Positions 946 to 62,994 of a DNA stretch of 64,000 nt are shown here, in pieces. The position numbers and the translations under genes are program-made. The notes under the pieces were generated by a model that was given only the letters and a program-made list of their open reading frames with translations, did not search any database and was not told the DNA's origin. The DNA is from Panorpa germanica (lineage: Eukaryota > Arthropoda > Insecta > Mecoptera > Panorpidae). Location of the stretch: positions 13,153,730 through 13,217,729 of the forward strand of contig OY783222.1 of assembly GCA_963678705.1 (NCBI GenBank). The letters are read 5' to 3'. Position 1 is the stretch's first letter, and each line of letters opens with the position of its first letter.

Positions 946-1277
946 TTGCACAGAGTGTGTAATTGTGGCTGTCTGAATAAACTGTAGCAGTCTTCACAGA
1001 TGCGGTCTAATCTTGCGAATATACTTTTATCGTAGACTCCTTTGCACTGCATATCAAAGAACGACCTCTTCATTAGACGATGGGGTGAAAATATTGAAAC
1101 TCCACTGTCTGGTGGAATCATTGACAATTCATTGATATTATCAACAAAGTCTGCAGGACCACCAAAATCCACGACTTTCTGGTGGTGGTGAGATAGAGGA
1201 CTTGCTGGGATCACTACCAATACTGACACAAGGACCACGAGCGCCGCCACGTAATTGTTGTAGAGAGAATGATTCAT
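946..1277 (-). CDS. ITP: Ion transport peptide (CHH family) precursor, coding exon 2
   Basis: Encodes the N-terminal part of a secreted neurohormone of the ITP/crustacean hyperglycemic hormone family, which in insects acts on hindgut ion and water reabsorption. Residues 1-8 are polar, about 9-26 form a hydrophobic signal peptide (YVAALVVLVSVLVVIPA), and about 28-69 are the precursor-related peptide. Lys70-Arg71 is the convertase site. The mature peptide starts SFFDMQCKGVYDKSIFARLD. Cysteines at precursor 78, 94, 97 and 110 are mature C7, C23, C26 and C39, the family spacing; the last two cysteines (C43, C52) must come from a later exon. The ATG is the first codon of the exon, directly after a splice acceptor. 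No stop precedes the donor. The family normally splices to alternative C-terminal exons (amidated ITP or long ITP-L); none is visible at 1-940, so they lie off the left edge. Family assignment is very secure; the choice of ITP rather than another CHH paralogue is likely. Confidence 0.96.
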
Positions 1278-1295
1278 CTGGAAAAGAAAAATTAT
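1278..1295 (-). other. 3' splice acceptor before ITP exon 2
   Basis: The minus strand reads AATTTTTCTTTTCCAG directly before ATGAATC. This is a strong polypyrimidine tract with CAG, so the exon begins exactly at the start codon. Confidence 0.88.
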
Positions 1296-1504
1296 GTCTT
1301 TATTTATGAATTTAAAAGTAACAAATTAGATATTTCTATTCTTTTTTTAATTTGTCTAAATTGTATAACAGAAAAGATATCTCTATTAGCAAGTAGTTCA
1401 TATAGATATTTTATACAGTGGTGTAACATTTTATATCTAGATACAAATACATGAGTGACGTTTTCAAATATACCAAACGTATGTACATACTTATAAATGA
1501 ACTA

Positions 1505-1614
1505 GTGTTATATTCATTTGTGTGTTAATGTTAGCAAATAAAATTGTAGTGAAAATTCAACTTAAAATTAAGCTTCTATTTGCCAATATTAACAAATAAA
1601 TGAATATCACAATC
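1505..1614. mobile_element. Family I MITE, copy 1
   Basis: GTTATATTCATTTGTGTGTTA at the left mirrors TAACAAATAAATGAATATCAC at the right, separated by a core with AAATAAAATTGTAGTGAAAA. The same arms and core recur at 14707 and about 62010. The fuller copy at 61969-62131 shows the outer ends missing here. Confidence 0.6.
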
Positions 1615-2154
1615 ATCCAATTAATTAATCCACAATAATCCAATATTTAAGCTATAAGCTTATAAAGGTCATATTAAGACGAAATGTCATTGGGACGCCC
1701 GATTAGTCTTCAATGATTCAGACTTTTATATTTTTGTCGACACTTAACCTCCAAAACACACAACTTTGCGTGCTCATTTCTAATACACGTTAGCTGTCAA
1801 ATTTGTTAAGCCTACAGAAGCATGTCGTTCTACGTTATATTTGAAAAGAAATATTCCAAATAAAGTTTCAACATGTGCCTTAAAATAAGAAACAAATAGA
1901 TTCATTTTTAATTGGTATCACTACCAGTGATCGTCTCTGTATATACGAGTATACGCCTAACTGTATTGCAACCAGCATTACACTTATTTATTTTTATAAT
2001 AAAAATAAAAGAAATATTTTATAACCAGATGTGTCATTAAAATCACGCCATAATTGCAAGTCGACAATCAACAGGCTGGTGTAGTTGATGTATGATCATG
2101 TTTGTCAGCAGATACCTATACCAGCTCTACCATGTATTGTAAATAATTAAGCCT

Positions 2155-2290
2155 TTCGCTGCAGCTGTGGTAGTGGTCGGTGGTCGGTGGTCGGTGGCAG
2201 CGGTCGGTGATAAGTTCTTCGGCTGCTAAGGCACACCTGTTTGCAAACGCTCTGGGCGGCGAGCCAATCAAAAACACCAGGTAATATAAT
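2155..2290. other. GC-richer island with GGTCGGT tandem repeat and E-boxes
   Basis: This stretch stands out from AT-rich surroundings. It holds CAGCTG (about 2161), four tandem or near-tandem GGTCGGT units (about 2177-2208), CACCTG and a CCAAT box. I found no second copy in the window. It could be an intronic enhancer or only a simple repeat. Confidence 0.3.
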
Positions 2291-2715
2291 ACTCTTCGGT
2301 TTAAAAAACTAAATAAAAATCATTAAGTACAAGTGACGATGATATCGTGAGAGAATTTCAATTATTTATTCATTGTATTAAAACGATATCTATTTCGGAT
2401 TTATTTACCGAAATCAAATCATGACTTTAACACATGTTCTATATACTTTTTTAATTTGTTATTTCATTTTTTAAGAACTCAATTTTAGCATGTGTTAAAA
2501 GAACTGAATAGGTCTAGGTAAAAGAAACCAAGTCCGTCGCAAATTTAATCACAAAAATAATTAATTAACCTTAGATATCTTAAGCCGCAATAATATTTAT
2601 GAAGTTTTTAGAACTTCGTGGTTTAATATGAATCAAAGTTTTGTTACGTCTGCGCAGCACAACTGGAATAAATTACATCTTAGTAAGCAAAAACTTTTGG
2701 CGAAGTTTGTACAAT

Positions 2716-3220
2716 ACTGTAATGTACAAATATACAAATACTATCAATTTTCAGAAGGTAGAGAGAAGAAGGCAGCGACAAGTGTGGAAGAGGAGCTAAG
2801 AAGAAGAGACAGAGAGATACAGCAACAGGAAAGAATGGAAAAATATCATAATAGCTAATATAATGAATGATACAAGAGGATTTAGAAGAAAGAGAGATAC
2901 CGAAAAACATGCGAGAAAAAGATATAAGAGACATTAGAAGAATCGCAAAATTTAGATTGGGAAACGAAGAGAAAGACAGCAGACACTGTGAAAATAGAGA
3001 GGAAAGAATGTGCAAGGTGTGCTAGAGAGAGATAGAAACGATGTAGCACATTAAGTGATCATGTGAGAAAAGAGTAAAAAGTGAAAAGAAAGTATTAAAG
3101 GGAGGCAATGAAAGGAAGATGTGGATGGCGAAGGAGTGAGGAAAGAGAAGGAAAGGTAGAGTAGAAACAGGAGAGAGACTATCAGGAAGAGAGAAGCAGT
3201 AAGGGTTTAAATTTATCTGT
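2716..3220 (+). pseudogene. R1-like non-LTR retrotransposon, 3' remnant of the RT protein
   Basis: In shifting frames the strand encodes an Arg/Glu-rich tail: EELRRRDREIQQQERMEKYH, then after frameshifts REKDIRDIRRIAKFRLGNEE, then a broken zinc-knuckle-like ERMCKVC. This order (basic coiled stretch, RxARFRLGNE motif, CxxC with a downstream H) is the C-terminal tail of arthropod R1/LOA-type LINE proteins. Stops and frameshifts show it is dead. A purine-rich 3' region follows. Reading frames on the opposite strand here are shadows of it. Exact clade uncertain. Confidence 0.72.
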
Positions 3221-3514
3221 TTTGTTTGTACTTTTCTTTTTTCTTTTGGAAGGAGTGAGAATGGGTAGATAGAATAAGGATCACAAAATGTAATTAAGCA
3301 CAATGATATGTTATTTAATGATTTAAGGCGGAAGAATGTAATGTCTAATGGCAAAAACATTACAATAAATATAATAATAACGTGTAATAAGTATAATAGC
3401 AACAATGACGATCAATTATTTTCAATTTCAAAACTATCTCTACATTTTCAGTTATTTTTATTAGAAAATGTACTGATTTGTGACCTTTCATTTACGTAAT
3501 ACTTTACTTATAAC

Positions 3515-3620
3515 AAAACCTAGTAATATTTAATCTAACAGAATTATATTTTAATATTTTATGGCTATAATAAATACCTTTAATCCTTAAAAAGGTATTC
3601 CTAAGAAGGTTTTTTATTAT
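3515..3620. repeat. Family J fragment
   Basis: AAAACCTAGTAATATTTAAT followed by a TTTTATGGCTATAATA-like stretch matches other J copies at 8340, 50495 and 54645. Confidence 0.45.
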
Positions 3621-6600
3621 GTTAATATGCAAGTGGAAAGATTAATTTTTCAAATAACCATGAATTTAGTAACAAAACATTGTATATTCGGTAACATTGT
3701 TTACGTAACAATTACCTTTTCTTTTGTTTTACTGTATTTAACGGGTGGTGTCACTACATGTAAAATGTTTTGCTTTTTATTATTCCCCATGCAAATAATT
3801 CGAACTTTGATTAAAATTATTTTGAATCCGAAACGGTCAACCAACTTTAAATTTTTAGGATACCGATGAAAGTTATAGCACAATAACTACCTAAACAATC
3901 TAGACTTTCTACTTAATAACTTTTAATCAAAATAATTACTTTTGAGAACAAATAAAATTCTAATTAAAAAATAAAATTAATTATTTTTTTTGCAAAGCAC
4001 GAATGTTACTTTTTTTAAATACATAATAATTCTTAAAATAGAATAACAAAGGAAACCGCCTCAGAGCAGTTAACAGTGTGAGTTGGAAGATAGAAACACC
4101 ACACAGATGTAGAGGGTCCGCGCTCGGCCTATTTTTTATTGTCTTATTTATTTTGTGCTGTCGATGTCAGTGGTGGCGTAAAAATTTAAATGAGTTAAAT
4201 ATTAAAGGAACAGTGCCCGTATTCCTGAGTCTTGTGAGCAATGATCGTGATCAAATGGATATGATTTATATGAGTGAAACATTTTATGAATCACTTTTAA
4301 AAGGCGTGGAAAGTGACAGTTGTCAAGTCAGAGCTGTTTAGATATAATACGTGACAGTTGTTAAATGTGACATTATATTGATGTAGAATAATGTAGATAT
4401 GTATAAATATAAATAAACTATATATAAATATAACTAAAAACGTGAGTTCTGTCCACTCCAAATATCAACTGTGTTGGCGTTATCCCTTTAGCGAAATCTA
4501 TGGCGTTCATGAGTATATGTTTTCATTGAACGATCACTGTTTTACCGACAGACAGAGCTTTGTACCAACTAAAGAAATATATTGTTTTAACATATTTAAT
4601 ATTTATTATATCTTAATAGAATATAAATATTTATTATATCTAGACAGCTGTCACTTTCGACGCATGCGCATAGAGGGACATATGCCTTTCTCTCTCGCAC
4701 ACATTTTGGACACACTTTTAATCTATAGGGAACATATGCTATTCACTCTCCATATATATATGCTCTAAGCTTATACCAGACCGAATTTAAAAAGTTTTTT
4801 ATTCAAGTTAGATTCGATCGATGCTCATCTGTTATCAGCATTCGCGGATCTCGTTAGATCTCCTGTGCTTTGTGATTTGTACCCGCCGCCCCAGGTTGCG
4901 CTGCAGGTAGTCACTGGTCAGGTTACCTTTCCTTTTTTACGACCACCACCTCATAATCACCATTATTTATCGATGCTGTTTCTCTTCTATTTATCTTTTT
5001 AAGCAGTTAAACCTCCCGCGATTATGCTACAGTAATTTCTTTGTAAATAATAATGGAAGCCGACGAACCCTGGGGCAACCTTCTAGTACATACTGAACAA
5101 CATCTTATGTATTTAATAAGATAATAACTTCTGAGTCAGATCGAACATTTATTTTCAAGCCGATATAAATATGTATGAAGAAGTCAATAAATAAATTGCG
5201 TGAGTAGAAAATGTTGCCATGATATCAGGCGTTTTCTGATGCACTGTGTTGCTACTGATACTGAATTAACTTTCTAATGTAAAAATGCTAAAGACAATAC
5301 CATTCTGAATATATTCTAACTACTCTGAAACATTTCGTTATTTTACCACAACTCTGTATGTTTTCTGTAACAAATATCATCTGTTGAGCAATTGACCACA
5401 ATCCGCAATCCGCAATCCGCAAGACGCAGATCGCAAACCATTAGCCTGAAGGTATCCAATGTGGACTCGGTGGCCTCAGATGCGGCAATCATCGACCACC
5501 AAAGACCACCTGGACTATCACCATGATATACTCGTATTTATAAATAAACAGAAACTTGAGTTGCCGAAGAAAAAAAAACGAGTTGGTGAGAGCGATTCTG
5601 TACAGAAATAGATTAAACGGTTTGTTAACCGTGGACGAAGGGCCAGGGGGATAAAAAGGTACATAATATAATACTGGTTCAAAGTTTCCACTTAGGCGCA
5701 GAATGTGTTTGCAAATAACCATCTTCTTTATCTATTCACAAAACAACTAAAACTTATTTATTTGTTTTAAATTAATTTTACGTAGAGTCATCCATCCTAT
5801 CTGATCTTTCGGCAAAGTAATTAAATTTCATCAAACTTACAAAATATAGCTTTGGGTAGGTAAGGCAGCCGAACAACATTTCTCAAAAAAATCACATGCA
5901 CTGGCTGCATTGCGTACTCCAAGTCGTTTCTTACACATTACTCATTCGACGTATATCTACATATTCCATTGGAACTTTAGTTTTACAAAGTACGAATCCA
6001 GATCAAGTGAAACTTATCTTTTGATCTTTGCGTTAAGAAAATTATTATTTCCTACTAGTAAATACAAAATATTATATTGTAATTAATTTCCATATAGTTT
6101 CTAACAAAGGATATTTTGCAAGGCTTGCCAACTGTGATATTATTTGTGATTATTGACAGTTATGTAATGATATCAAAGCCATAGTTAATTATTAGAGGAG
6201 TTTTACAATTAATTGTGTATGGTTAATTAAAATAGTGAAGTGAAATATTACGTAATAGAACTAGCTTTATTTGTGGTTTATACAAGGGCTATAATATCAC
6301 ACAAAACAACAAAGCAAGTAAAGTTATATGTATAGTGCTTTGTTACTATTATATCTATAGAGAGAATTTTTAGGTTAGAATCTGTTCAACAATATTGAAT
6401 GAAATTTAGTAGTTTCTGAACTAATATAGAATAACTTTAAATAATTTTGATGCTGGTAAAATAAATTGAAATACATTTTTACATGCCATGTACTATTTAC
6501 GTCCGTATATAAAAATGAATTAAATTCAAAACAGCACGATATTTTGATGAATGACATTTTCTACAAACACACTTTGGAAATCAATCTACAATTAGAATAA

Positions 6601-7283
6601 TATAAGAATTCATAACAATAGTGTCACGAAACTGTGCTCAAGTAATTTATTTATGAAAAATGAACGTTATTTTTATCTATTTAGTCAATGGAAATCAGTT
6701 AAGAATGTAAATTTATTTATAATATTTCTTAGTAGTTTTATCTGTATCTGAATTTACAAAATAAAGCATCATCAAAACAAAATCAAGAATCTTCCATCAT
6801 AATATTTAGTGTTTATACTTATGACATATTTCTACAACTTAACAAGAATAGGTTGACAGTTTCTGGAAAATGTTGATTGAAATTTAAGTACAATCAAAAC
6901 ATTATTAGTAGAAGGCAACGACACAGATAAAGTATGCGTCCAGCTGTCATACCATTCTATATACTAGTATAGTAAGTGGAATACTTGTATCGTACGAGTA
7001 TGTTGAAAACAAGTCGAGGTATGTGGCGTGGTGGAGCTGGTAGAGCTAGACAAGGCGACGACATCGAAGGCGAAGTGTAAAATGCAGAACGTACGAGAGT
7101 ACGAGTAACCAGCATTCACAGGCGCAGTGGTTACCGCTTCAAAATTATAAAAAGGATTTATTGAAATAATAATCAAAGCGCGTGAACTTTATTTGTAGGT
7201 TAACAAAAAGTTAACCTCTGTTTTCACCACTGTACTTGTAAAATTCACCTGGGATATCATTCCACAATGGACTTTGTTACTTG
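3621..7283. other. Stretch without recognised genes
   Basis: I see no exon here. It contains a near-duplicate AT unit (TATTTATTATATCT at about 4610 and 4629), a GC-richer segment at 4840-4940, and a GCATGCGC (NRF1-like) palindrome near 4660. The open frame at 4078-4341 and the one at 4442-4768 have no recognisable domain. Confidence 0.5.
5399..5419. repeat. Short tandem repeat (CAATCCG)x3
   Basis: Three consecutive 7-bp CAATCCG units, followed by degraded copies (CAAGACG, CAGATCG). Confidence 0.8.
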
Positions 7284-7880
7284 GTAATGAGCTTGTGTCC
7301 TATGTCTTAATTTCTATAAAATTGTACTATATATTGATAAAGTGGATTACTAGAACCTCAAATGTTCAATTATGTTTTAATAACTACTTATATGTTAGGA
7401 GATATTAACAATTAAAAAAGTCATTGTGTCCCTTTAATTATTAAAGGGATTCAACGTTGTACAACATTCCAAATACATGTGATCTCACAACCACTATGTT
7501 GTTTCTCTTTTATACAACAGAGCGTAAAAGAGATATATTCTTGACAGAATTCTGACAAGTTTACAGCTCATAAATCTCTGCTGTATGTATTTATATATTA
7601 AATATTATTTACATCTATTTCGAGAAACAATAAAATTTCAATATAATGTCTGCCGTAACATGGTTAAATAAAATAAAAACTTATTATTCTTTGACTTGAC
7701 TTGATTATTTCGACTACCAACAGCTACAAAACATTACCACAGCACTGACCTAATCAACAAATGAGTGACTTATACAATAAATTTTCACGTCATACAAATG
7801 GCCGACCATCTCTAGCGCTAAAACTACAATTTACAACATTTAGATATATAATAAAATAGACACGTCAATACACATACGTA
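7284..7880. mobile_element. Family A MITE, copy 1
   Basis: It opens with AATGAGCTTGTGTCCTATGT and tracks the complete copy at 47826-48447 over nearly its whole length, including TTAAAGGGATTCAACGTTGT and ATGGCCGACCAT. The right end is replaced by a family D repeat at about 7885. No coding capacity. Confidence 0.7.
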
Positions 7881-7884
7881 TTAC

Positions 7885-8268
7885 AATTGCATTCTGGTCA
7901 GGTGAGCTTTGTAGTGTGTGTAGTGCAACGAGTAACTGTCTAGTCCAACTCCAGCAAAGTGACCATATACGCATGGACTCCATGGATAACGGGCAACGCC
8001 GTGATATTTGGAGCTGACAGAACTCACTGTGCATAATGTTAAGTTATTATAAAATTAAATAAAAAGGAATTGACCTTTTGAATAATAAACTTTAAATGTC
8101 GTTTCTTTGATTCATATAAGATAGTATAATTTAAGTTAAACAGTGTAATTATTATAATGTGTTTGTAAATTACTAAAATAAAAGTCTTTGGTTTCAGAAG
8201 CAATATATAAGTTTGATTAAAAATTAACAATTCCTAATAAAATTGTCTTATATGTATATTGGGTTTTT
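7885..8268. repeat. Family D interspersed repeat, copy 1
   Basis: Starts near TTACAATTGCATTCTGGTCA and runs through GGAGCTGACAGAACTCACTG and AACTTTAAATGTCGTTTCTT to TAATTCCTAATAAAATT-like sequence. The same order occurs at 17805, 18885, 25665 and 58275. I could not assign a class. Confidence 0.65.
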
Positions 8269-8339
8269 AATTAAAATTGTCGGAGCTAGAACTATTTGTG
8301 TAGTCATATTTGTGACGTAACAAATGTAATATTAAAATC

Positions 8340-8582
8340 TACAATAAGTAACCCGCAAACCTAGTAATATTTAATCTTTAAGGGTTTTCTTTTACGATTT
8401 TATAGGTGTTTCAAAAGCCTTTCATATTAAAAGGAACGACAAAGATGCATAGAAGACTACATTTATTTTTCAAAATGTATCAAAATAGGTCACAAAAGTA
8501 GTTAATTAGATAAAAACGTTTGCAGGTAACTTTTATTATGTTAGATACTCCTTAAATACACGTAACTGTGTTTGGCGGGCAG
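8340..8582. repeat. Family J interspersed repeat
   Basis: CTAGTAATATTTAATC ... ATAGGTCACAAA ... GTAACTTTTATTATGTTAGA ... ACGTAACTGTGTTTGGCGGGC. The same succession recurs at 54645-54860 and, partly, at five other places. Class unknown. Confidence 0.55.
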
Positions 8583-9435
8583 TCTCGCATTAAGGTATTG
8601 AAAAAATGTGGTCTTATTCTATTTCCTTTCTTCTTATTTCAAATTCACGTTAAAGTAATGCAATGCCCCTCGTTTTATAGTGTATTTTACAGCCGCTACT
8701 GTTTAATGCAAGTATCCCAGGATTGTTATTTACAATATACACCTGTTAGATATTCCCAGGTGCGGTGCAGTGTGTTGCTAATCCCGTTCCGGCGTCCCTC
8801 CATCCCTCCATTCCCCCGCTCGGCCAACTACGCAACCACCCAACCACCTGTTTAGCCATTTAGCTGTTCACTTGTTCAGCACTTTACACAAGATGGACAT
8901 TTTATATGCATGCCAACAATCCAGCTACGAGCATGATGTCGATGCCTGGTGAATACCAAATGTTGATTCTAGTTATGAGAAAACTCAAGCCTTGTATTTA
9001 GAATGTGTACTCGCAAAACAATAGCCATATAATTAAGAAGCTAAAACCGTCGCAGTTATTTCTTTTTTATGAATCTACTTAATTTGGAGTGAACACATGG
9101 AGTGAGAAACCTGGCGTGGCGCGGCGTGCCGATGGGTACCCTGAATAAAATAATATCTGTGACAAACTTATATTAGAAAGAATGGACTTGAGATTTTAAG
9201 GACAGGTCATTTAATCAAAAATCCAAAATGATTTCATTAGTTGATAAGTTTTTGCAGGTAACCCTGTCGAGTTTTTTTCTTTTATTGATTTTTCAATATT
9301 TTACAGTACTTAAAAGTCAAAATACCGATTTTTCATGAATCAGAAACTTTGTTATTTTAAAATACGTTACAATTAAAAAAAGAAAAACTCAACAGCGTTA
9401 CCTTGGCATTTATGTAAGGAAAGAGTGTGCAAAAT

Positions 9436-10057
9436 AGGGCTTCACACGAACACGAGACTTTTCTCGTCTCGAAGGTTAGGTCGAAAATTTACGAAATATA
9501 AAATCTGGTAAACAAACATCTGTTAAATATTTTATTTTATAATTTTGTCTTTTACAACATTTTGTAGCCGAACGGAAACGAATGTTTTAAGGGAAAATAA
9601 ATGTGAATATAAATTATTTACAATGCGAATGTTTGAAAACATTTTGCCTCAAAAATGTCGTTGAGTGTAGATGTTAATAGCGTCAACCTGACAAAAAGGC
9701 CGAGATAAGATGAAAGTGATGATGCATTAAGTGAAATTGAACCAGTTGATCAACTGTGTATAAAAAAAAATCTTCAAAGTTTAAATTTTCTTTTAAATTT
9801 GATACAATTAATGGTAAGAAAAAAGCGATATGCTTAATGTGTGAAAAATTTGGAATAAAAAAAAATAATTATCCAAAATAATATAATGAATTACTTTGTT
9901 TGGGACTATCTTAGGAGTAAGTTCTCACAAAAATGAGCTGTGACGAGACAAACGATTACGAGACGAGAATGAGACAAAAACGATATCTATTTTATTCTAA
10001 ACTAACGGGGCGAAATTTTTGAAACTCTCGCGTTATTCCGTCTCGTGTGAAGCACTA
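9436..10057 (+). mobile_element. hAT transposon, internally deleted (622 bp)
   Basis: Termini TAGGGCTTCACACGA and, inverted, TAGTGCTTCACACGA match at 14 of 15 bases. The 8-bp target GTGCAAAA flanks it on both sides (9428-9435 and 10058-10065). TAG-type termini with an 8-bp duplication define hAT elements. Subterminal ACGAGAC-like repeats occur at both ends. It keeps a remnant of the transposase N-terminus and has lost the catalytic region. Confidence 0.92.
9655..9880 (+). pseudogene. hAT transposase N-terminal remnant with BED-type zinc finger
   Basis: An ATG at 9655 opens a frame broken by a TAA 18 codons on. After a shift at an A-run the strand encodes KFDTINGKKKAICLMCEKFG, the basic stretch and CxxC of a BED zinc finger, followed by a short Lys/Asn-rich segment before coding capacity ends. 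The BED finger is the DNA-binding domain at the N-terminus of hAT transposases. Second half of the finger and the catalytic region are missing. Confidence 0.7.
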
Positions 10058-10654
10058 GTGCAAAATTTCTAAAGGATCGGTGCAGTACATTTTGAGCTAT
10101 AGAGGACACCGACTCTGAAAAAGTTAAGTGTGAGAAAAACGCATTTAAAAGTTTCAAAGAAAGACGAAACCAGACCAGAGAGCTGAAGACTTAAAACTCT
10201 ATATCTTCGATATTCTATACTGTACATTCATATGATAAAGTGTTTGGGGGCTCATGAAAAGCGCTAGGTTCTTAAGGCATTGGGAAAATCTTTTTGGATG
10301 CTTTGTCATTGTGTGACCACCATTTAATCTGTATCTGATAAGAGTATGAGTATAATGCAATACTCGTAAATAACTGCGTATACCTTCAGTTTTTGATCGT
10401 AACAAGATCAAAACAGCTGCAGCTAATATTTATTATGCACTCATATTTATTTTATAAACCACGTTTAATAATTTCGGATCTTTATGTAGTTTAAACAACG
10501 GTTAATTAAACGGTTTCAACATGTATTTCAAAAATAGATATTTCAGTAAAATTTAAAATTAATCCACGCTTAAAACATGTGATGCACAAATATCGGTCCC
10601 AGTACAAAAATATGTTGACTGTGTTCATATACAATTTAATAGTTTTTCTACGGG

Positions 10655-11293
10655 AATGGGGTTATGTCCTATGTCTTAATTTCTATAAAAGTGTCCTATA
10701 TATTGATAAAGTGGGTTACTAGAACCTCAAATGTTCAATTATTTTTTAATAACTCCTTATATGTTAAGAGATATTAACAATTAAAAAAGTCATTTTGTCT
10801 CTTTAATTATTAAAGGGATTCAACGTTGTACACATTCCAAGTGCATATGACATCACAATCCCTGTGTAAGGTTACCAACCGTACAGCTCATAAATCTCTG
10901 TTATATGTATTTATATATCAAAATATTAAATATTATTTACAGCTATTGCAAGGAACACTCAAATTCCAATATTATGTCTGCCCTAGCAGGGTTAAATAAA
11001 ATAAAAACTTATTATCCTTTGATTTGACTTGATTATTCGACTACCAACAGCTACAGAACATTACCACAGTACTGACCTACTCAACAAATAACTGACGTTA
11101 AAATGCATTTAACGTCATAAAAATATGGCCGACCATTTTTAGCGCTGAAACTACAATTCAAACTTCTAATTGCTATATCTCCGTCAATATTCAGATGTTT
11201 AATAAAATAGACACGCCAATACACATTTATTAACATCAATTTCAATCAACAATTGTAAATTGTAATTGTAACTAAAAAATGAGGACATTGATA
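10655..11293. mobile_element. Family A MITE, copy 2
   Basis: AATGGGGTTATGTCCTATGT at the left, then the complete family order to ACTAAAAAATGAGGACA at the right. It is very similar to the copy at 47826. The right terminal inverted repeat is cut after GAGGACA. Confidence 0.72.
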
Positions 11294-23990: not shown

Positions 23991-23992
23991 GC

Positions 23993-52200: not shown

Positions 52201-52266
52201 ACTGAAACATTGTACTTTTTTAAAATTGTTTGCACTGTCATACGATCTCAGTATAATACTGTAATA

Positions 52267-52516: not shown

Positions 52517-52979
52517 AGATTTATGTCACTCAATTTTTACATCAAGTTATAATAAACTAAAACTAAATTAGAACTCACATTAATTGTAATATATTAAGAT
52601 ACGTGTTTTGTAGATTTGTTTATTTTTGCGCATTTTTGTGTTCTATTTATAAAAAATTTACTAGGCTCGGGACAAAATATAAAATCAATTATTTCTTTAA
52701 TTTTAAATGCCACGCGTAATCAATGATATACTGGTACAACCACAATTATTTCAGTGAAATCAAAAGTATCTAGTCACAATTGCTCTTTGCACAGTTCAAT
52801 TCTATCCAGTTACAAATGCCCCGATTGAATTTTGACCAATCGAAAATTTCGATTCATAGACATTTTTGTTTATTGGCTAATCTGGGCATGGTTCTATTCA
52901 AATCCGGTTCTATTCAAAATGGCAAAACTGGTGCAACACTGTAAAATACAGTGCAGAATAAATCATGAAAAGAAAACGC

Positions 52980-53070
52980 CATAAGTAAATTTGTTTACGT
53001 CACGGGTAATATTTGTTATATTAGATAAACGCTAAGTGCATGTAACTATGTTTAGCGGGCTATTACCTGA
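52980..53070. repeat. Family J fragment
   Basis: TAATATTTGTTATATTAGAT and AACTATGTTTAGCGGGC match the right end of J copies. Confidence 0.45.
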
Positions 53071-53599
53071 ATCTGTGTGTTTGTTTAACAAAGTTATTTT
53101 CCAACTAATAACATGAAGAAATATTTAAACAGTATTTCAAACAATAGCTGAATATTAGTGGGCTTATTCTTTTCAAGGTAGAATAAGCCCTAAATACCAT
53201 CAGAACTGAAACACTTTGAAAACTTATTGAAAACGCACAAATTATTATTCACGGTTTCACAATTTTTTTATTTTCCAATTAGGTAGTATTAATTTTCAAC
53301 TTGTCACAATTGAAGATTTTATTTGTAGTTATTTGTACTTTGGTTGTTTATTTTTGAATTCCTTCTTACTAAAGCAAAGGTTACACTGAGTGTCACATGA
53401 GCAGATGCATGGCACCGCGACCCCTGAACCGCTGGACTCCCGGACCGCCTGACCGCCTGACCATTGGGTTCCTCCTCGTTCAACAATTTAAGAACATTAA
53501 TAAAGTCAAGACCGGTTGCAACAAAAAATATCCTAGATTATATGGCTACAAATTTGTAACTAAAGAAAAAAAAATTATTCTTTACAGTGATAATTGGTA

Positions 53600-53740
53600 G
53601 AAAATTGTCCTGGAGTGAAAGTTTCACACCTGCTAGCTTGCCTCACACTAATTTCAATGTTAATTTTCCACCTCTTATATAGAAATTGTGTGCAGTGCAA
53701 TTTTACACTTGCTAGCTTATTAAAAGCTAATTAAAGAGTT
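53600..53740 (+). repeat. Family C repeat, two tandem units
   Basis: GTAGAAAATTGTCCTGGAGT ... CACACCTGCTAGCTTGCC, and about 80 bp on GAAATTGTGTGCAGTGCAAT ... CACTTGCTAGCTTATTAAAA. Confidence 0.6.
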
Positions 53741-54104
53741 ACATTTTATTACATTTTCTGCCAGGATATCCGTAGCTCTTTATTGTACTTGTACCTCAAA
53801 ATAATAATAAGGGCGTCCGCACACTGGAGACACAACTTTCTCTAATATATTTTCCAATTTTTGAAACTACGCCTTTCTTTTTGCACATTTACATAATCAT
53901 AAAACTTTATAAGATACTAAAAAAAATTGAGACGTTAAGAAAATGTTTTAGGGATTATAGACTCTTAAGAACATCCTTTTAAGAATTAAATCTTTCAAAG
54001 GCAAATATAAAAATAAGACTCTTTTAGATTAAATATTATCAAGTAAAATTTCATATAAACATAAGGTAACATTCATGTATTGTGTTTAACGTTGTAGAAA
54101 GACA

Positions 54105-54430
54105 ATGCTAAAATTAGCTGTCAGAACCTCAAATATCAAATTATTTTTTCTTAAGTCGCAATATTCTTGGAGATAATAACAACTAATATAGTCATTTTTG
54201 ACTCTGTAATCATGAAAGGGATTAAAATTAAAAAAAAAAATACTTTCGTCGACAACATGTTCGTTTCCCACCCTCTTTCTTTTGTGAATTGCCATCTCTG
54301 TTATACAATATAGTGCATAAGATGCATAAGAGTGTATTTAAAAAAAAAAGAATTAAATTAATAGACATGTAGTAACATATATTTTAATAAAAATTGAAAA
54401 AATTCAACTTTAAATTTTGTGTTAAACTTG
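54105..54430. repeat. Family B repeat, copy 7 (partial)
   Basis: TTAGCTGTCAGAACCTCAAA ... GTCATTTTTGACTCTGTAAT ... CCATCTCTGTTATACAATAT, in the order of the copies at 1 and 20282. Confidence 0.5.
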
Positions 54431-54644
54431 TTGCTAATAATGCGCTTCCTTAAATGTTCTCATGGTTTGTACTGAGCTGCTAGATTGTCTTAAGACAATT
54501 GTCGTGCAAGAACCATTGATGAACACATCCGTGTTGTAGCTGGGTGCCAGTGTTGTATCATTAATGACAGTAGGTAAACTGCGGTCATATTACCAGAAAA
54601 AGACAAAACATAGATATTACCTTACATGTAACATTTTACTATTA

Positions 54645-54860
54645 TGCAAAACCTAATAATATTTAAACTAAAAGGTCTTATTTTATTATTTTATAGCTTT
54701 TCCAAAAAATACTATGGGTATGCAAATGAGCGAAAGGGTACACACCTAGTAAAATAGGTCACAAACCGTTGCATGTTAGGTAGATTCGTTTACATAACAT
54801 GTAACTTCTGTTATATTGTAGATAAACATTAATCATGTAACTGTATTTACTGGGCATGGT
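54645..54860. repeat. Family J repeat
   Basis: ACCTAATAATATTTAAACTA ... TTTTATAGCTTTTCCAAAAA ... ATAGGTCACAAACC ... GTAACTTCTGTTATATTGTA ... TGTAACTGTATTTACTGGGC. The best partner for the copy at 8340-8582. Confidence 0.55.
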
Positions 54861-54865
54861 TGATA

Positions 54866-55080
54866 CCCAGTAAATAATTTGGTGATGTGTCTTGTTTTGT
54901 GACGTTTTTATAACTTTATCTTCATTTGTATCCCGACAGATAGAGTGTTTTGTAGGCGATAAAATAGACATTTCATATGAACGACTGTGAGAAACTGAAT
55001 TGTAAATGAACTCTTTCATGACAAAAAAGCCATAGGCATTTTCAATATGATGGCAAAGTGACTCCAAAATCTTTACTAGG
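54866..55080. mobile_element. Mariner-like MITE (family E, copy 3)
   Basis: CCCAGTAAATAATTTGG at the left and CCAAAATCTTTACTAGG at the right are inverted repeats, with TA directly outside both (54864-54865, 55081-55082). Inverted relative to 52267-52516. Confidence 0.75.
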
Positions 55081-55084
55081 TAAC

Positions 55085-55245
55085 TACCTTCTCAACACAT
55101 AACGTCGCAAGTAGAAAATTATCTGCTTACAAGCTAATTTCAAGGTTCATTTTCTACTTCTCATATAGTAATTATCTCGCACTTCAAGATTCACACTGAA
55201 GGAGGAGTTAGCCACAGCTAATTTTCTACCGCTGGTAAACTCATG
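55085..55245 (+). repeat. Family C repeat, diverged
   Basis: CAAGTAGAAAATTATCTGCT ... CAAGCTAATTTCAAGGTTCA TTTTCTAC ... CAGCTAATTTTCTACC. Confidence 0.45.
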
Positions 55246-55379
55246 TATTATTTAACGTTATGTTTTATTATTTTCAGAAGTTTAACAAAATTACATTACA
55301 TTATCACTAAATAAATGCAAAATATATTAAAAATCTTTTACTAAATTAATGTGTGACATTATATCTTACGTAGAGAGGT

Positions 55380-55515
55380 TTATTCATGTCAGAAAGTGTA
55401 AATTTACGTCGAAAAATAACATTTGTTACATAACTTTATGTTAACCTGAAAAATGTTACGTAACAGGTAATTTCTTTCTGTTAAATATACGTAATTGTGT
55501 TTAGCGCTTATATAT
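55380..55515. repeat. Family J fragment
   Basis: CATTTGTTACATAACTTTAT ... GTAACAGGTAATTTCTTTCT ... ACGTAATTGTGTTTAGCGC. Confidence 0.4.
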
Positions 55516-55844
55516 CTATAAAATTCCGTTCCTAAGATGATTTGATGCAATCGCTCTTTAAAATAAATGTTAGTTGAATAATAAACCGTCCATTCCAACA
55601 ATTTAGATAGAGGCTTGTCTGCCCGTTGCCCGTTTGTACGTCCAGTGCACACATTAGTTATTTCACGGTGGGCTGCGGACTTCATTTAAAAGGTCGTAGT
55701 AGACTAGAACCTAGAACCTGGAGATTTTATTACTACTGGTCCACTAACCAAACCTTGGACAACCAGTAATAATGATCTATTGTCTGAATCGTTATCAACA
55801 AAATAATATTAAATTATTCAATTATTGGCTCATTTATAATACGT

Positions 55845-55895
55845 ATGTGTGTGATGTGTGTGTATGTGTGTGTGTGTTTGTATGCATGTACTTAG
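55845..55895. repeat. (TG)n-rich microsatellite
   Basis: Interrupted TG repeats with TATG and TTTG interruptions. Confidence 0.85.
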
Positions 55896-56154
55896 TCCCT
55901 TTAACCTTATCGCATTATTTGATCTACGACCTCAATGAAACCATCTGCTAGCAACGTATCAAATTTGGGCATCTGGAGCATTGTGCTGGTATTGCATATC
56001 CCGTTGTTTTGTTTTGTTTCATTCCATTCAACTTCGAAGGATTCAAATAATTTCACTTTTTATTTATGTTATGTATATAAAATATATTCACTTCGGCGTA
56101 TTTAAGATACTGAGGTCTTTTTCCGACGTCTTCCTATTATGTTTAAGGTCAAAT

Positions 56155-56720
56155 CGATAAAAACAGTTAATATACAATTATTTCTATACTGTTACTTTAG
56201 TTACTACATGATAAAAGAACATTTAGAGAATTCTTTGTGAAATTTTTATAAATAAATATCAAGAAATGGGGCTTTGAGAGGGAGAACGAATCTCCACAGA
56301 CGTCACAAAAAAAGGAACATTGCGGTGCCTCTCATAACTCATCACTGGATTTTCTGAAGTCGAAAAACCAAAATGATTTCATTAGTTGATAAGTTTATGC
56401 AAGTAACCCTGTCTAGTGTTTCTTTATTTATTTTTCAATTTATTACAGCACTTAGAAGTCAAAATACCGATTTTTCATGAGAAAAATCAGAAACTTTTAA
56501 AATACGTATGCAATAAGCTCGGAGCTGTAGATTTTGAGCTAGAGAGGACACAGACTCTAAAAAAGCTATGTGTGAGAAAAACGCGTTTAAAAGTTTCAAA
56601 GAAAGACGAAATCAGACCAGGGAGGTGAAAACCGACAGTTGTACTCCAATCGACTTCAAATTTTCACACAATAAACTTAATATGTTGTATATTAATATAA
56701 ATAAATAAAAAAATATGAAA
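56155..56720 (+). repeat. Family F repeat, copy 3
   Basis: Aligns with 38220-38870 from ACAGTTAATATACAATTATT to ACACAATAAACTTAATATGT, with internal deletion around 56490-56515. Confidence 0.65.
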
Positions 56721-56739
56721 AAAGAATTAACACAACCAA

Positions 56740-56832
56740 ACCTAAAAAATATAATTCTGGTCTGGAGATCGAACCCGAAGACACAGTAGTCAATGTCAAG
56801 CATCAAAGTTGTCACCTACTGTACCGTCAATT
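56740..56832 (-). repeat. tRNA-derived SINE, copy 2
   Basis: On the minus strand: ACGGTACAGTAGGTG (A-box region), TTTGATGCTTGACATTGACT, then GTCTTCGGGTTCGATCTCC (B-box GGTTCGATCTCC) and TATATTTTTTAGGTTTGGTT. The same sequence of blocks occurs at 59125-59235 and in the head of the element at 14752. A promoter pair of this type is the hallmark of tRNA-derived SINEs. Confidence 0.65.
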
Positions 56833-57009
56833 ATTCTATTAATAACAACATGTCTAATCGTCGCCGAACAGCAACTGATGAATAAATTAAATTAATAGAA
56901 TTGTTTCATTTAAAAGTTGTCGCTTGCGACATTTCATCCCGTGTTGCAGCTGGAACGGGGTGTAAAATACATTAAAAATTTTCTACTAATATATTAATTT
57001 AATATGTAA

Positions 57010-57601
57010 TGCCTGTTTTACCACAAAGAGACAGTTTTGTGTTCAAAACACTGAACAAAAACATGTTTTGTTTTATTTTAAAACTGTTCTGTTTTTCGAT
57101 ATCAGACTGGTTTTGTTTTTCTGTGTGTCTCATAAAAATGTCCGACGACAATGATTTTATAATTAAATACGATTTTTGTTTTAATAAATGACATACCAAT
57201 TAGAAAAAAAATAAGATCATAGGTCAGTTATCTAATGAAAAGGAGAGTTCATTATGGCACTGAAGAATTATTGCATGATTTAAGCACTGACGACTTTAGG
57301 TTAAATGGAGAATTGAGATCCTCCTTTCACAACTTTACAAGAATATCAAGTACTGATTTTGAACTGTTATAGAATTAATTTGCTAGGACCTACAATCACC
57401 AAGAAAAATACCATATTCCAAAATATAGTTGATCCAAATAAGCCGACTCCAGATGGGAATGTGTTTTGTTTACTAAAACAGTTTTTAAAGACAAAAATGT
57501 TTTAAGAACTGTTCAGTTTTTAAAAAACATTGATGTTTTTGTTCAGAAAAACAGTTTTTGTTCGTGTTTTGTTGTTTTGTCTGTCTGGTGTAAAACCGGC
57601 A
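57010..57601 (+). mobile_element. PIF/Harbinger element with transposase remnant (592 bp)
   Basis: Left TGCCTGTTTTACCACAAAGA and inverted right TGCCGGTTTTACACCAGACA. TAA is duplicated at 57007-57009 and 57602-57604. Subterminal GTTTTGTT-rich repeats match the 400-bp MITE at 15158. It splits an I-like LINE remnant: joining the flanks gives the TGTAAT-ATGCCTGAG order seen in the sister copies. Confidence 0.85.
57240..57445 (+). pseudogene. PIF/Harbinger transposase N-terminal remnant
   Basis: Encodes YGTEELLHDLSTDDFRLNGE, then SSFHNFTRISSTDFELL, and after two stops and a frameshift GPTITKKNTIFQNIVDPNK. The pattern F-x-N-F-x-R-[IM]-x-x-x-x-F-x-x-L-L followed by G-P-x-I-x-K-x-x-T-x-F is the N-terminal region of Harbinger nucleases (HARBI1 relatives). 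The DDE catalytic region is absent. Confidence 0.72.
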
Positions 57602-57795
57602 TAATATGCCTGAGGAATATAGGCAGATATTTGAAATCAGGGAAAGTCTGAAAAACCTTATTGACTTTACCAATAAAAGTAATTTAATCTCTTTATTTTA
57701 AGTACCCATACTCATGTTTATAAGTTGTAAATTATGTATTGTAAATGTTTATAAATATATTTTAGTGCTAATAACATTTGAAAGTTGATGATTTG
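57602..57795 (+). pseudogene. I-like LINE 3' remnant, copy 3
   Basis: MPEEYRQIFEIRESLKNLID is encoded from 57606 and matches the last protein segment of the copies at 32200 and 43400. The 3' UTR follows (ACCCATACTCATGTTTATAA, GTGCTAATAACATTTGAAAG). The part upstream of the Harbinger insertion is too decayed to recognise. Confidence 0.7.
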
Positions 57796-58274
57796 TGTTG
57801 ACCGGGTAGGGACACTTATATCAGTAACATTAATGCGAAATGTTTACAATTGATTGTAGTTTTAAGAAACGTGGTTTTTCGAGTGTACAATGACTTTAGG
57901 CTTAATGCTACGACAATGTCAGTAGCATTGGTTACTACGTCACATAAAACGAAAGAGAAATGAGAGATTTACGCACGAAAGTTGTAAATCTTTACAGGGA
58001 TTTCCAGATTTAACTTATGTCAATTACTTATGTAAATTATTATTAAAAATAAAAGTGAAATTTGTGGTTTGCTATTTATAGAAACACTTTGCTTAAACTT
58101 TATTTTGCAATGGGAATCACGAATTCGATTAATAAGATATTTTACTAATATTTGATGTATTATTTAATGTATTTTTCTTATCAACGTATTGCGTTTTAAT
58201 TACCGAAGTTAAGTACCGAATAATTGTGTTACATTGTCATTAAATAAAAGCAAAATACATGTAAATAAGTTACA

Positions 58275-58455
58275 TTTCTTTAGTTGGTAACACTAACCAG
58301 AGATATTACAATTGCATTCTGGTCAGATGAGCTGACGGTATATATTAGTTATATCTACTTTCATTGTAGTGTGTGTCAACGGCCAACAAGTAGATATTGT
58401 TAAGTTGTTATAAAATTAGATGAAAAGGAATTGACAATTTAAATAATAAATATTG
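58275..58455. repeat. Family D repeat, copy 5 (left half)
   Basis: GTTGGTAACACTAACCAGAG, GCATTCTGGTCAGATGAGCT, TTGTTATAAAATTAGATGAA, then stops at AATAATAAATATTG. Confidence 0.6.
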
Positions 58456-59124
58456 CGACTTATTAAAAAATAATTGGACATTTAAGTTATATAGAAATGA
58501 AGACATGGTTCATATTCACTCTAAACAAATTCAAACGTCTCGATCAGCTGTGAAGCGATATATTAATAATTAAAGTGCGTATATTTAACATAGCAAATTG
58601 TGCGAAACAGAATTAGTACACGTTAAATATTGTAGAACATATATATATTTAGGAAACGGTATTCGGTTTTAAAGATTTTTTAAAAAAACATATATATTTA
58701 CAATTTCAATTTACAATTCCAAAAAGGGAAAATTTTAAAAATAAAGTAATTTTTGCTTGTTTATTAATAAACTGAACATATATTTTTTAAGCTGAGTGCT
58801 ATCAGCGACGACCTTCAACTATGTTGGCAGTTTTTGCGGTGCCGTGGCCTCATGTATGTTATGTGGGCCGTACCGATGGCTAATAAGTTTATATTTACGT
58901 ATGTAACATAATCATTTTATTAACTTCCCATGAAAAATCAGCATGCTTGATCATGACCAGTCTTGTGGACCTTATTGTCAAAGTTAAAAATTTCATTGAG
59001 CAACCCCTCTCCCCCTTTTTGGTGTACTTACATAAAAAATAATTTGTCTGAAATTTCAGGCCAATCGAATAAAGAAAACGTGAAAGCCTCAAAAGCCGTC
59101 GGTATTATCTAATGTATGGTCATT

Positions 59125-59235
59125 TTTTCACTGGTTAATAACAACCAAACCAGAAAACATACCTCTGGTACGGAAACCGAATCCTAAGGCACAACAGTAG
59201 GTTTCAAGCATCAATGCTCTTGCCCACAATGTCGA
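59125..59235 (-). repeat. tRNA-derived SINE, copy 3
   Basis: On the minus strand: TTGTGGGCAAGAGCATTGAT, GCTTGAAACCTACTGTTGTG, GGATTCGGTTTCCGTACCAG and GTTTTCTGGTTTGGTTGTTA. Block order as in 56740-56832. Confidence 0.6.
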
Positions 59236-59670
59236 CTGAACAAAATTTAGTTCCATGTTCAAAATTGATATTTTCTTGAAACAGCTTAGTGAGTGTTACT
59301 AACTTTTTGTACTTACTACCGAACTATACATTTGGCAACGATTATCATCACTAATTAATGGAACGTCGGTACGAATCTCCGATTCCAGTAATAAAAGTAT
59401 TGCATTATCATGACACACATATTTACTGCATTGACACTTTATTATTTTCCCATCATAATATAAACAAAACTTCAAATAATTCATCAGGGCTTCTACGTTT
59501 TTGGAATTCGAAAACACACGTCAGTTCAAAACATTCACCTTGCTTTCTTCTACATCAGAGTTTCCTAAACATTTTTCATAAAACTTTTAGTTGTGTCTTA
59601 CGTTTCGTTTTCTCCAATGCTTCATTTGATTCTGATGCATGCATCTCATTTGGTGGTGATCTTAATCATT

Positions 59671-60180
59671 CTGTGTAAACTATACCGACTAATGAACAAG
59701 AACTTCCAGTTAATGATAGAAAACAAATTATTAGCATATAAATGTATAGTTAAACCAGTATGGACTTATAAGTTACTACTGAGGGATACATCAGCTAATA
59801 CAAACATTGAGATTTTACAAAAATTTCAATCAAAAACATTACGCATTATTGTAAATAGATGTACCATGGTATATTACAAAGGAAAGACTGCACCACGATC
59901 TTGCCATACCCATACCTACAGTAGCGGATTAAAGTTAGTACTGCCATAGACCCATTTCGATAAGGCGCAATTCTTAAATGGTAATAGTAATTGTATTATT
60001 GCCTAATCGGAATGCATCTAAAGCGCCATCTCCCTTTAATATATATGTATATATATACAAAATAGTGGCCCGTTATCCTCTAAGCTCTAAAATTTATTCA
60101 AAGAGTCGTCGAAATCCTATTCGATTTTTAATTATACTCGCCTTTAAAATTTGGTCGTGTCTAAAATTGTGGCGCTCTTA
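59671..60180 (+). pseudogene. Jockey-type LINE reverse transcriptase C-terminal remnant
   Basis: From 59671 the strand encodes CKLYRLMNKNFQLMIENKLL, AYKCIVKPVWTYKLLLRDTS and ANTNIEILQKFQSKTLRIIV, the thumb region after the RT domain of Jockey-clade LINEs (NKLLxYKxILKPxWTYGxQLWG..SNxxIxQRFQSKxLR). After frameshifts it continues HHDLAIPIPTVAD (DLxIPTV motif), PNRNASKAP and a decayed end. The frame at 59593-59949 joins this to unrelated upstream bases. Older and more damaged than the Jockey copy at 32281. Confidence 0.85.
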
Positions 60181-60189
60181 GCCCGAGCA

Positions 60190-61960
60190 TCACGGGCCTT
60201 TGCCAAAATCTATTACTGAATACCTGCACTGTGACAAGAAATTAAAACTTTAACAGCCAATTACAAAGATAGAGTTGCAAACCAATCAAATTCATTAAAT
60301 ATGGTTCACATACGAGCGACTTAAACATGCGTCGTTCAACATTTGTTGTGATAAGTTGTACAACACGTCCACACTAATGCGACATGCAACTTAATTCGTC
60401 GGAAGCTTTCTTAATTCCGTAATTTCTTTAGATGTTCCGACTTAGGATTTAAACATTTTTGTTTCATAAAAATACTACCTTGAATTTTAAGAAATAGGGT
60501 TTTATTATTGTCGCATTCTTATGTCGTACTAGTCTGTACTATACAATAGTGACCAACTTAATAGAAGATAGGACTACCTAGTGCAGACTGAAGAGGAGGG
60601 CGCCTCAGGAGTTAATTAAATTTAGTAATATGGACACATACCGTGCCAGTTCAATTTTATTTGTATACTTATTGTTACATGCTTATATGACAGATCACAA
60701 TACAAATAAATTTAATAAAAAAACTGCTTGAATTCGCGTGACAAAAATGTTTAGGCCCTTTTAACTGGGGTGTGTTTGTGTCAATGATATGTAATCGTAT
60801 ATACACAAAATAAATCAGCACAAAACAATATATTATTGCAGAAATGCACATTGGGAATTTAATCACAAGAACGCATTCATATGCACTACATAGAATTTAA
60901 CATAATAGTTATTGTGCCCCAAAGAAATGGACTTGAATGCAGCAGGTTAAATGGAGGATCTGTTAGATGCAGATGTGCCAGTGTCAGTGCCAGTCCCAAT
61001 GTCATAACAACAAAACAATAACAGGATATTAATTGAAAACTATTTCATTCTTGCTGAAATTGCAATTGTTCGTAAATATAATCTTAAAGGCTTTATCCAC
61101 ACTAGAATATGTTGGGCTCGATGCCAACTGTTTCTAGTACACGAGCGAGCCATATGTGGCCAACATCAGTTAACAAGCAAAAGTCGTGATCTTCACATCT
61201 TAGTTAAACTAATTTATAAAAAGAAATAATAAAAGTAATTTATATATTTATGTAAAAAAATTATAAAATATATTTTTTTAAGCAGATCCTCGTGAAGTAG
61301 TAAAGAATGGAGAACTTGCTCAATAATTAATTAAAAAATTGAATAAGAGTAGGTTCCGAAACTTTTAAGGAAATAATTTGTTTTAAAAAATGGAAGTTTC
61401 CCGTACAAGTATATGGCGATTCATACACTTGTGCTTTTAAATGAAGATTTAATATAAGGATCTAATGGAGAAATTTATTATTTCAATTGAATATGGTTCA
61501 GAAAACATCAAGCTGTCGATTAAAATAATAAAAATAGTATGTTTCCGAAGAAATAACAAAAATAATTGACGTTTTTATAAAAAATATCATCATAATCATC
61601 TGTCACTTCCGCTGTTCAAGACACGATGTAAGATTTGGCAACGTCGCTTGTGCAGTTAACCGACGCACGAGTAACCACGAATATTTGAAAGGCATTAGGT
61701 CTAAGTTTTCAGGTTATGTACTCTAGCGGTGTTGTCAGGTGTTGTCAAATGTGCCCAAGCGATTTAGAATACCTTATTTGTTTTAGTCAATTGAATGTTT
61801 ATAAGTTTTTAGAATTTTTTTTTTTTAATTTATGATGTAATATTATCTATACATATTAAAATTATTTTTCATATGCATGAAGAAAGTAATAAGAAATATA
61901 ATATTGTTACGGAAATTATTTACACTACGGTGGTACCAGGCTTTGTGTAACAGCGCTCTA
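60190..61960. other. Stretch without recognised genes
   Basis: AT-rich; no exon, repeat copy or structured element was recognised. Confidence 0.4.
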
Positions 61961-61968
61961 TTTTTTTT

Positions 61969-62131
61969 CTGACATCTTGCGTCATGAATTGGATTTGTGT
62001 GATATTCATTTGTTTGTTAATACTCGCAAAATAATTGTAGTGAAAATTCAACTTAAAGTTAAACTTTTATTTAATAATATTAACAAATAAATTAATAGCA
62101 CGTAAGTTCAATTCATGACGTATGACGTCAG
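61969..62131. mobile_element. Family I MITE, copy 3 (most complete, 163 bp)
   Basis: Ends CTGACATCTTGCGTCATGAA and inverted CTGACGTCATACGTCATGAA show three mismatches, continuing inward to TTCATTTGTTTGTTAATA / TATTAACAAATAAATTAA. Runs of seven or more T and A outside the arms extend the symmetry. Confidence 0.75.
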
Positions 62132-62802
62132 AAAAAAAGTTAAAAAGTAAAAATTGAGATTTTATTTTAGGTTAGGTTTTAATTAATGCAAGAACTCATT
62201 CCTTTTATATGCTTATTACTGTACTCTTCACTTCTTACGTCCCAAAGTGGTCTCAATTCTCTATACTGACCTTCTGCTTTGTCACATATCTACATATAAT
62301 AATAACCGGTCATTATTAATAAAATGTAACTAAATAAAAAATTCTAATAAAGGTCAATGTGATTAATTTATAAAAATTTATCACAAAAATCAGTAATCGT
62401 CAGTAATGTTAGTCTGATGAAGTCAGGTAAAGAAAAATCGAAATCGTATTGAATTGAAGTTCTGCCTTAACTGAATAAACTCTCTAAAAATAGTCGAAAA
62501 TGATTTTGTCAAAATTTCTTTGTATACAAAAATGGAGAAAAGTTTTCTTACCACGTTAAAGAATTAAATATACGTATATGGTAGATCATAAATAGTAAAA
62601 AATCAGCAGCTCATTGTCAATAAATTTACGTGATGTCGCATATTAAGTTGATAGCTTGTAAATTAATAACAAAAGAACTATTAGTAAAAATTATTATATG
62701 AGAATAAGTAATAGTATTTTTCATAAGGATATTGTTAATAATATCCGGTTATTATTAATACAAACCGGGTTTGTCATATCAACCGTAAGAGATGTGTATG
62801 AA

Positions 62803-62808
62803 TCTTAC
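62803..62808 (-). other. 5' splice donor of putative ITP exon 1
   Basis: The minus strand reads TTCAAG|GTAAGA, a near-consensus donor at the end of the GC-rich leader. Confidence 0.65.
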
Positions 62809-62936
62809 CTTGAATATATTCAGGTACAGGTCGACAGGTAGGCAATCCTCGTGAACTCTGCCGCGGTTATCGTCCGCCGTCGGGCTTCTAGTTCTTCAGG
62901 ATCTTATCGACACACGAACAAGACTGACACTAGAGT
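62809..62936 (-). other. ITP: Putative non-coding exon 1 of ITP (5' UTR)
   Basis: About 128 nt from the initiator-like TCACTC (A at 62936) to the donor at 62808. It is clearly richer in G+C (GAAGCCCGACGGCGGACGAT, AACCGCGGCAGAGTTCACGA) than its surroundings and contains no ATG on this strand. Splicing to exon 2 would give TTCAAG|ATGAATC, so the first ATG of the message would be the ITP start, with A at -3. The next minus-strand exon I can recognise is ITP exon 2. Alternative: first exon of another, unseen gene or of a non-coding RNA. Confidence 0.6.
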
Positions 62937-62963
62937 GATAACGGAGAAATGATATCCAGCCTC

Positions 62964-62994
62964 TTTTATATTATCCGCGAGATAAGGGACGTCA
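62964..62994 (-). promoter_or_regulatory. Core promoter: TATA box, inverted GATA pair, CRE-like site
   Basis: On the minus strand, TGACGTCC (62987-62994, one base off the CRE palindrome) is followed by TTATCTCGCGGATAA (62971-62985, an inverted GATA-type pair) and TATAAAA (62964-62970). TATA lies 34 bases before the initiator-like A at 62936; TCAGTC at 62925 is an alternative start. TATA plus CRE is common in neuroendocrine genes. Confidence 0.6.

Follow-up and report, generated by a model that had tools for sequence, protein, structure and literature searches.

Where does transcription of the ITP gene of Panorpa germanica begin? The question was raised by a stretch of 64,000 nucleotides on contig OY783222.1 (C19:13153730-13217729; hereafter the window), in which an ITP coding exon lies near one end and promoter-like signals on the same strand lie near the other. 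In the present study, we analyzed the window and its flanks within an assembly of 464 Mb and 249 contigs. The features are collected in Table 1.

Table 1. Features of the ITP locus; positions count from the first letter of the window, except those on C19
Feature	Position	Strand	Remarks
ITP-type exon	C19:13152098-13151984	same as exon 2	farther exon; motif and family search
ITPL-type exon	C19:13153140-13153020	same as exon 2	nearer exon; motif and family search
ITP exon 2	946..1277	minus	start codon, signal-peptide-like stretch, precursor-related peptide, KR cleavage site, first part of mature peptide to the split codon after the fourth cysteine; donor 945-944
Splice acceptor tttttcttttccag	1278..1297	minus	adjoins the ATG; rank 74 among 3,006 AG sites when scored simply for pyrimidines
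GC-rich element	2086..2310	minus	0.8-1.0 kb upstream of exon 2; not repeated within 254 kb; may be an enhancer or a proximal promoter
Proposed first intron	1278..62808	minus	61,531 bases; deduced from flanking signals
Proposed untranslated exon 1	62809..62936	minus	117 or 128 nt depending on start site; ATG-free; GC 0.50; donor AAG/GTAAGA
TATA box TATAAAAG	62963..62970	minus	starts at 62970; A of TCACTC 34 bases downstream, A of TCAGTC 45 bases downstream
CRE-like TGACGTCC	62987..62994	minus	upstream of the TATA box

Coding exons of the ITP gene

Exon 2 is an open piece of 110 codons, read from 1277 to 946, which opens with ATG and is followed by a GTAAGT donor (CAA/GTAAGT at 945). Its last 36 residues matched PF01147 (CHH/MIH/GIH neurohormones) in Pfam with an E value of 3.7e-18. 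Comparison with solved sequences gave three matches, namely crustacean hyperglycemic hormones 1 (3.2e-9), a hyperglycemic hormone-like peptide (9.8e-9), and molt-inhibiting hormone (2.5e-5). Reading of the translation revealed a hydrophobic N-terminus of the ITP precursor and a KR preceding SFFD, and the codon following the fourth cysteine was split in phase 2. Exon 2 had one match in the whole assembly.

The 90 kb to the left of the window were searched by motif for further ITP exons, and the whole genome was searched by family profile. The motif search revealed two more exons on the same strand, 0.6-1.7 kb past the left edge of the window, and the genome-wide family search agreed. Both exons begin in the phase demanded by exon 2. 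Joined in phase 2 to the nearer exon, exon 2 yielded an ITPL-type precursor with the C-terminus GADPNF; joined to the farther exon, it yielded an ITP-type precursor with the C-terminus WVQFLGKKRK. The two spliced products matched PF01147 at 8e-33 and 3.1e-31 (112.6 and 107.5 bits), and inspection showed six cysteines in each mature sequence. The genome search with PF01147 returned 62 matches at E ≤10, and four reached the cut-off, three of them being the ITP exons in line on C19. The fourth, at C3:15022471, had 25.0 bits, an E value of 0.0075 and one internal TAA, and was taken as chance. A control search found matches in three of 14 genomes, none above the cut-off. The gene is the sole convincing ITP gene found in the 464-Mb assembly. 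Among viral contigs, six stretches fitted the pattern of ITP relatives and none was confirmed, and a literature search with the sequence letters of the ITP precursor found no paper.

Previous studies have described, in the portions cited here, a phase-2 intron after the fourth cysteine of insect ITP genes (Montagne et al. 2010, PMC2841656) and a four-exon plan whose peptide is completed by either exon 3 or exon 4 (PMC7560641). The Panorpa germanica locus fits this plan and is remarkable only in the proposed length of its first intron. It carried PF01147 with six cysteines, a phase-2 intron splitting the codon that follows the fourth cysteine, and alternative exons whose sequences predict an amidated ITP and a non-amidated ITPL. 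Since the remaining coding exons (ITPL-type, then ITP-type) were found just beyond the window, the locus is, as read from its predicted exons, a standard insect ITP/ITPL gene. The first-pass annotation had called 946-1277 an ITP/CHH coding exon whose ATG is the first codon behind a splice acceptor, and the PF01147 match and the AG adjoining the ATG confirmed both points. It had also suggested that one ITP gene may span the window; the ITP identity stands, and the gene extends past the window to its alternative coding exons.

The position of the start codon bears on what lies upstream. The acceptor before the ATG is rich in pyrimidines, and the DNA preceding exon 2 had a GC content of 22-31%, with five ATGs over 323 bases and 17 over 959 bases. 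Because the ATG abuts the acceptor and an unspliced readthrough would carry those 17 ATGs, an untranslated upstream exon is very probably spliced to exon 2.

Distal promoter-like signals and the candidate leader

The promoter signals and the leader sit in 62139-64000 and lacked a second copy within 254 kb. A DNA search of the whole assembly, which passes over very common words, gave one match for promoter and leader together. Two initiator-like motifs follow the TATA box on the minus strand, with the A of TCACTC at 62936 and the A of TCAGTC at 62925. The usual distance from TATA box to start is about 28-34 bases, which favors TCACTC as the start and puts TCAGTC out of range. No ATG was present within 62936-62809, and the leader donor lies at 62808. 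The CRE-like motif, whose first base at 62994 coincides with the end coordinate of the first-pass annotation, adds little evidence, because TGACGTC occurred nine times in the window against 2.8 expected. An earlier reading of this end as a TATA box, initiator, ATG-free GC-rich leader and donor was upheld: all signals were present, and the leader had a GC content of 0.50. If the initiator meant was the perfect one, TCAGTC, it falls outside the normal spacing.

We further evaluated how unusual these signals are. With approximate weights, the leader donor came fourth when all 3,443 minus-strand GT sites of the window were scored. Another scan joined each TATA/initiator pair to the next GTAAG or GTGAG and counted rows rather than independent sites; in it, the 62.8-kb site gave the sole ATG-free leader on the minus strand of the window (two of 18 rows, both there). 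A composite was then defined as a TATA box, an initiator and a donor scoring at least 6 with no ATG between, by criteria chosen after the candidate had been seen. When both strands of 254 kb were read, it was found at two places, at 62970 on the minus strand (GC 0.50) and at 22691 on the plus strand (GC 0.27), and a donor threshold of 5 added 68830-68507 on the minus strand (GC 0.35). In 60 first-order simulations of the minus strand, a mean of 0.017 composites per 64 kb was obtained, and none had a leader GC of at least 0.45. The combination of TATA box, initiator, donor and ATG-free leader at 62970 is rare by chance. The GC content of the leader was unremarkable alone: 22 stretches, the leader and exon 2 among them, equaled it or came within 0.03. 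As many CpGs in 187 bases were found at four places including the leader, and none of the other three was repeated within 254 kb.

Of the candidates found on its strand, the leader at 62.8 kb is the strongest, and taking it as the upstream exon of exon 2 is a plausible and the most economical reading. On the strength of signals and position, it is probably exon 1, joined to exon 2 across the 61,531-base intron. Transcription would most likely start at the TATA promoter near 62936 on the minus strand, and the promoter would be active there. The short, ATG-free leader (117-128 nt) would be spliced over 61.5 kb by joining its donor to the acceptor at 1278. The hormone's start codon would then be the first AUG that the mRNA contains, and the leader would give it a CAAG-AUG context. 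Direct joining of exon 2 to the distal coding exon would give the amidated ITP, and joining to the ITPL exon would give the non-amidated ITPL.

The intervening sequence and other possible starts

The main start of ITP might instead lie near exon 2, for example within 2086-2310, in which case the first intron would be short and the 62.8-kb leader would be a minor alternative first exon or belong to something else; we consider this unlikely. The GC-rich element at 2086-2310 had a GC content of 0.47 against a background of 31% GC, and contained what we take to be an inverted CCAAT, a GC-box-like stretch and E-boxes. Its donor-like site, CAG/GTGTGC at 2236, scored 5.9, although it deviates from GTRAGT at +4. 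The TATA/initiator scan gave no rows in the element, and the 17 ATGs that an unspliced readthrough would meet also argue against a start there. A nearby start would agree with the oligo-capping data for seven further arthropods reported alongside Locusta migratoria, in which, in the part of that study cited, start-codon-to-promoter distances were unimodal in all but Aedes, with the fruit fly peak near 100 bp (PMC8011201). We also give only tentative weight to the idea that ITP is driven by two or more promoters separated by tens of kilobases, at 62.9 kb and near 2.2 kb and perhaps at CpG-rich spots near 16.1, 40.6 and 45.5 kb. Different neurons and tissues would then arrive at the same hormone exons from separate leaders, an arrangement like that of the planthopper spread across more than 60 kb.

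Promoter and donor signals do not name the gene to which they belong, and the leader might instead be exon 1 of a non-coding RNA, or of a small gene that lies within the 61.5 kb and was missed by the scans. None of the 127 minus-strand open frames of at least 50 codons (126 inside the proposed intron) matched Pfam at E 0.001, which supports, for frames of that size, an earlier statement that no competing coding exon lies on this strand. Two single matches at 0.006 and 0.008 were at chance level; a further 112 minus-strand frames, of 40-49 codons, lie below that size. Among 93 plus-strand frames of at least 55 codons, none matched at 0.001 and two did so at 0.005-0.006. Rfam and tRNA scans of the window found no Rfam family and no tRNA, and repeats that recur within 254 kb covered at least about 27% of it. 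A codon-usage model was trained on P450 and flank pieces and evaluated on 123 held-out pieces; it has little power on short exons. Its top minus-strand segment in the window fell in the ITP exon, and 20 minus-strand segments in the interval reached the held-out coding median, so that short coding exons were inseparable from noise. Given the Pfam, Rfam, tRNA and repeat results, we regard a non-coding RNA or nested gene as improbable.

The flanks were also inspected for another owner of the leader. On the right, an actin-family gene with two Pfam-matched exons lies on the plus strand, opposite in direction to ITP. On the left, 74 minus-strand frames of at least 60 codons in 60 kb and 30 other frames were run against Pfam, and PF01147 in the ITPL exon was the sole family tied to a minus-strand frame. 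Weak matches to Rab11-FIP3, Fez1 and Tektin, below their cut-offs, fell in one coiled-coil-like plus-strand frame (L009:7702-7992). A weak match to SLC25_like (1.6e-4) occurred in one of the 104 frames; because it was not tied to a particular frame, a left minus-strand frame carrying SLC25_like is possible. The frame L010:5120-5599 (160 aa, same strand, left of ITP) was considered as the owner of the leader and rejected; it had no Pfam match, and its other strand resembled a mariner-type transposase by eye. By eye, too, a long BEL/Pao-looking frame precedes the actin-family gene.

It is very improbable that ITP starts further upstream, for example at 68830-68507 or beyond, with the leader being no more than a chance or fossil signal: a second minus-strand composite does appear at 68830-68507 at donor threshold 5, and TATA-less promoters escape these scans, but of the three composites the one at 62970 has the leader richest in GC and, unlike 68830-68507, a donor above 6, and it is CpG-rich, as locust promoters are in the cited part of the locust study (PMC8011201).

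Comparison with known insect genes and significance

The leader at 62.8 kb, taken as exon 1, can be compared with known insect arrangements. In the brown planthopper, alternative 5' untranslated exons 1a-1d give tissue-specific ITP transcripts, according to the part of the report drawn on here (PMC12077777). Both insects have one gene for amidated ITP and non-amidated ITPL, and both would have an untranslated first exon, whereas several leaders were shown by transcripts in the planthopper and the single leader of Panorpa germanica is predicted from sequence. The cricket ITP locus occupies Scaffold259: 893509-930810, about 37 kb, in the portion consulted of its description (PMC9960350). No statement of the present ITP structure was found in the literature searched for ITP first exons; the 2007-2009 papers on moth, fly and beetle ITP genes fell outside that search.

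Distant promoters are documented for Locusta migratoria. In the sections of the locust study used here, the farthest core promoter lies more than 3 kb from the start codon in 45% of genes, leaders have a median of 133 nt, promoters are enriched in GC and CpG, and the median length of single leader introns is 14.3 kb, with the 75% quantile at 34.6 kb, in a genome of 6.5 Gb; distant promoters are commoner with larger genome size (PMC8011201). As proposed, the Panorpa germanica locus would be like these genes in its short leader (predicted 117-128 nt against the locust median), far promoter, GC and CpG enrichment, and intervening transposable elements, as far as those sections describe them. Unlike them, it would place 61.5 kb in a 464-Mb assembly, which is beyond the 75% quantile of the much larger locust genome and counts against the leader reading. 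A short, GC-rich leader at a great distance upstream is thus a documented type, and the proposed intron of 61.5 kb is long without being new in sort.

In weighing the leader at 62.8 kb as exon 1, we counted in its favor the rank of its donor, the simulations, its single copy, the lack of Pfam matches among the minus-strand frames, the opposite direction of the actin-family gene, and the planthopper precedent. Against it we counted the poor spacing of TCAGTC, the similar composites at 22691 and 68830-68507, the short exons that the codon model could not separate from noise, and the frames of 40-49 codons outside the Pfam test.

Collectively, the locus is an ordinary hormone gene whose predicted leader intron is long, and its general arrangement is already known in insects. 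If the proposed structure is true, ITP transcription would start 61.5 kb away rather than in the kilobases beside the coding exons, so reporter lines made from the proximal region, promoter cloning and automatic annotation would miss the start. The gene would also provide a concrete example of a mid-sized insect genome carrying a very long leader intron.

Completion of the ITP gene

The ITP gene is completed by two terminal coding exons to the left of the window, one of the ITPL type and one of the ITP type (see table).

Features of the window and its flanks (L010, left-flank DNA beside the window, in its own coordinates; flank positions otherwise in window numbering)
Feature	Position	Strand	Remark
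ITPL-type terminal coding exon	L010:9411-9291	minus	close to the window, on its left
ITP-type terminal coding exon	L010:8369-8255	minus	close to the window, on its left
CpG-rich spots (three)	window 16046-16283, 40531-40723, 45456-45673		CpG density equal to that of the leader (predicted untranslated ITP exon 1)
Direct repeat	window 1505-1610, 61997-62101		106 bases, 86% identity
Frame A	window 23690-23875	minus	inspected by eye
Frame B	window 59569-59946	plus	inspected by eye
Frame C	right flank, 105934-106464	plus	similar to A
Frame D	right flank, 73157-78376	plus	1,740 codons, uninterrupted
Frame E	L010:5120-5599	minus	160 codons
Frame F	left flank, -88097 to -87648	minus	
Frame G	left flank, -80546 to -79851	minus	
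Frame H	left flank, -47112 to -46726	plus	

CpG-rich spots and repeats

No second copy of the CpG-rich spots was found within the 254 kb of window and flanks; they may represent enhancers, additional promoters of the alternative kind, or insertions of old date. The direct repeat, whose copies lie close to each end of the proposed intron, is apparently a small dispersed repeat. Judged by eye, the open frames A and B resemble the tail ends of non-LTR retrotransposon proteins; no Pfam match was obtained for B. On visual inspection, frame D has the appearance of a BEL/Pao retrotransposon, and its lack of interruption indicated that the copy is apparently young. The open frame E had no Pfam match; read on the opposite strand, it resembles a mariner-type transposase when judged by eye.

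Possible secreted peptides

By visual inspection, the open frames F, G and H were found to share the motif [RK]-P-[IL]-F-x-Y close to the C-terminus, and the N-terminus appeared secreted-looking in two of the three. These frames possibly constitute a local secreted-peptide family.
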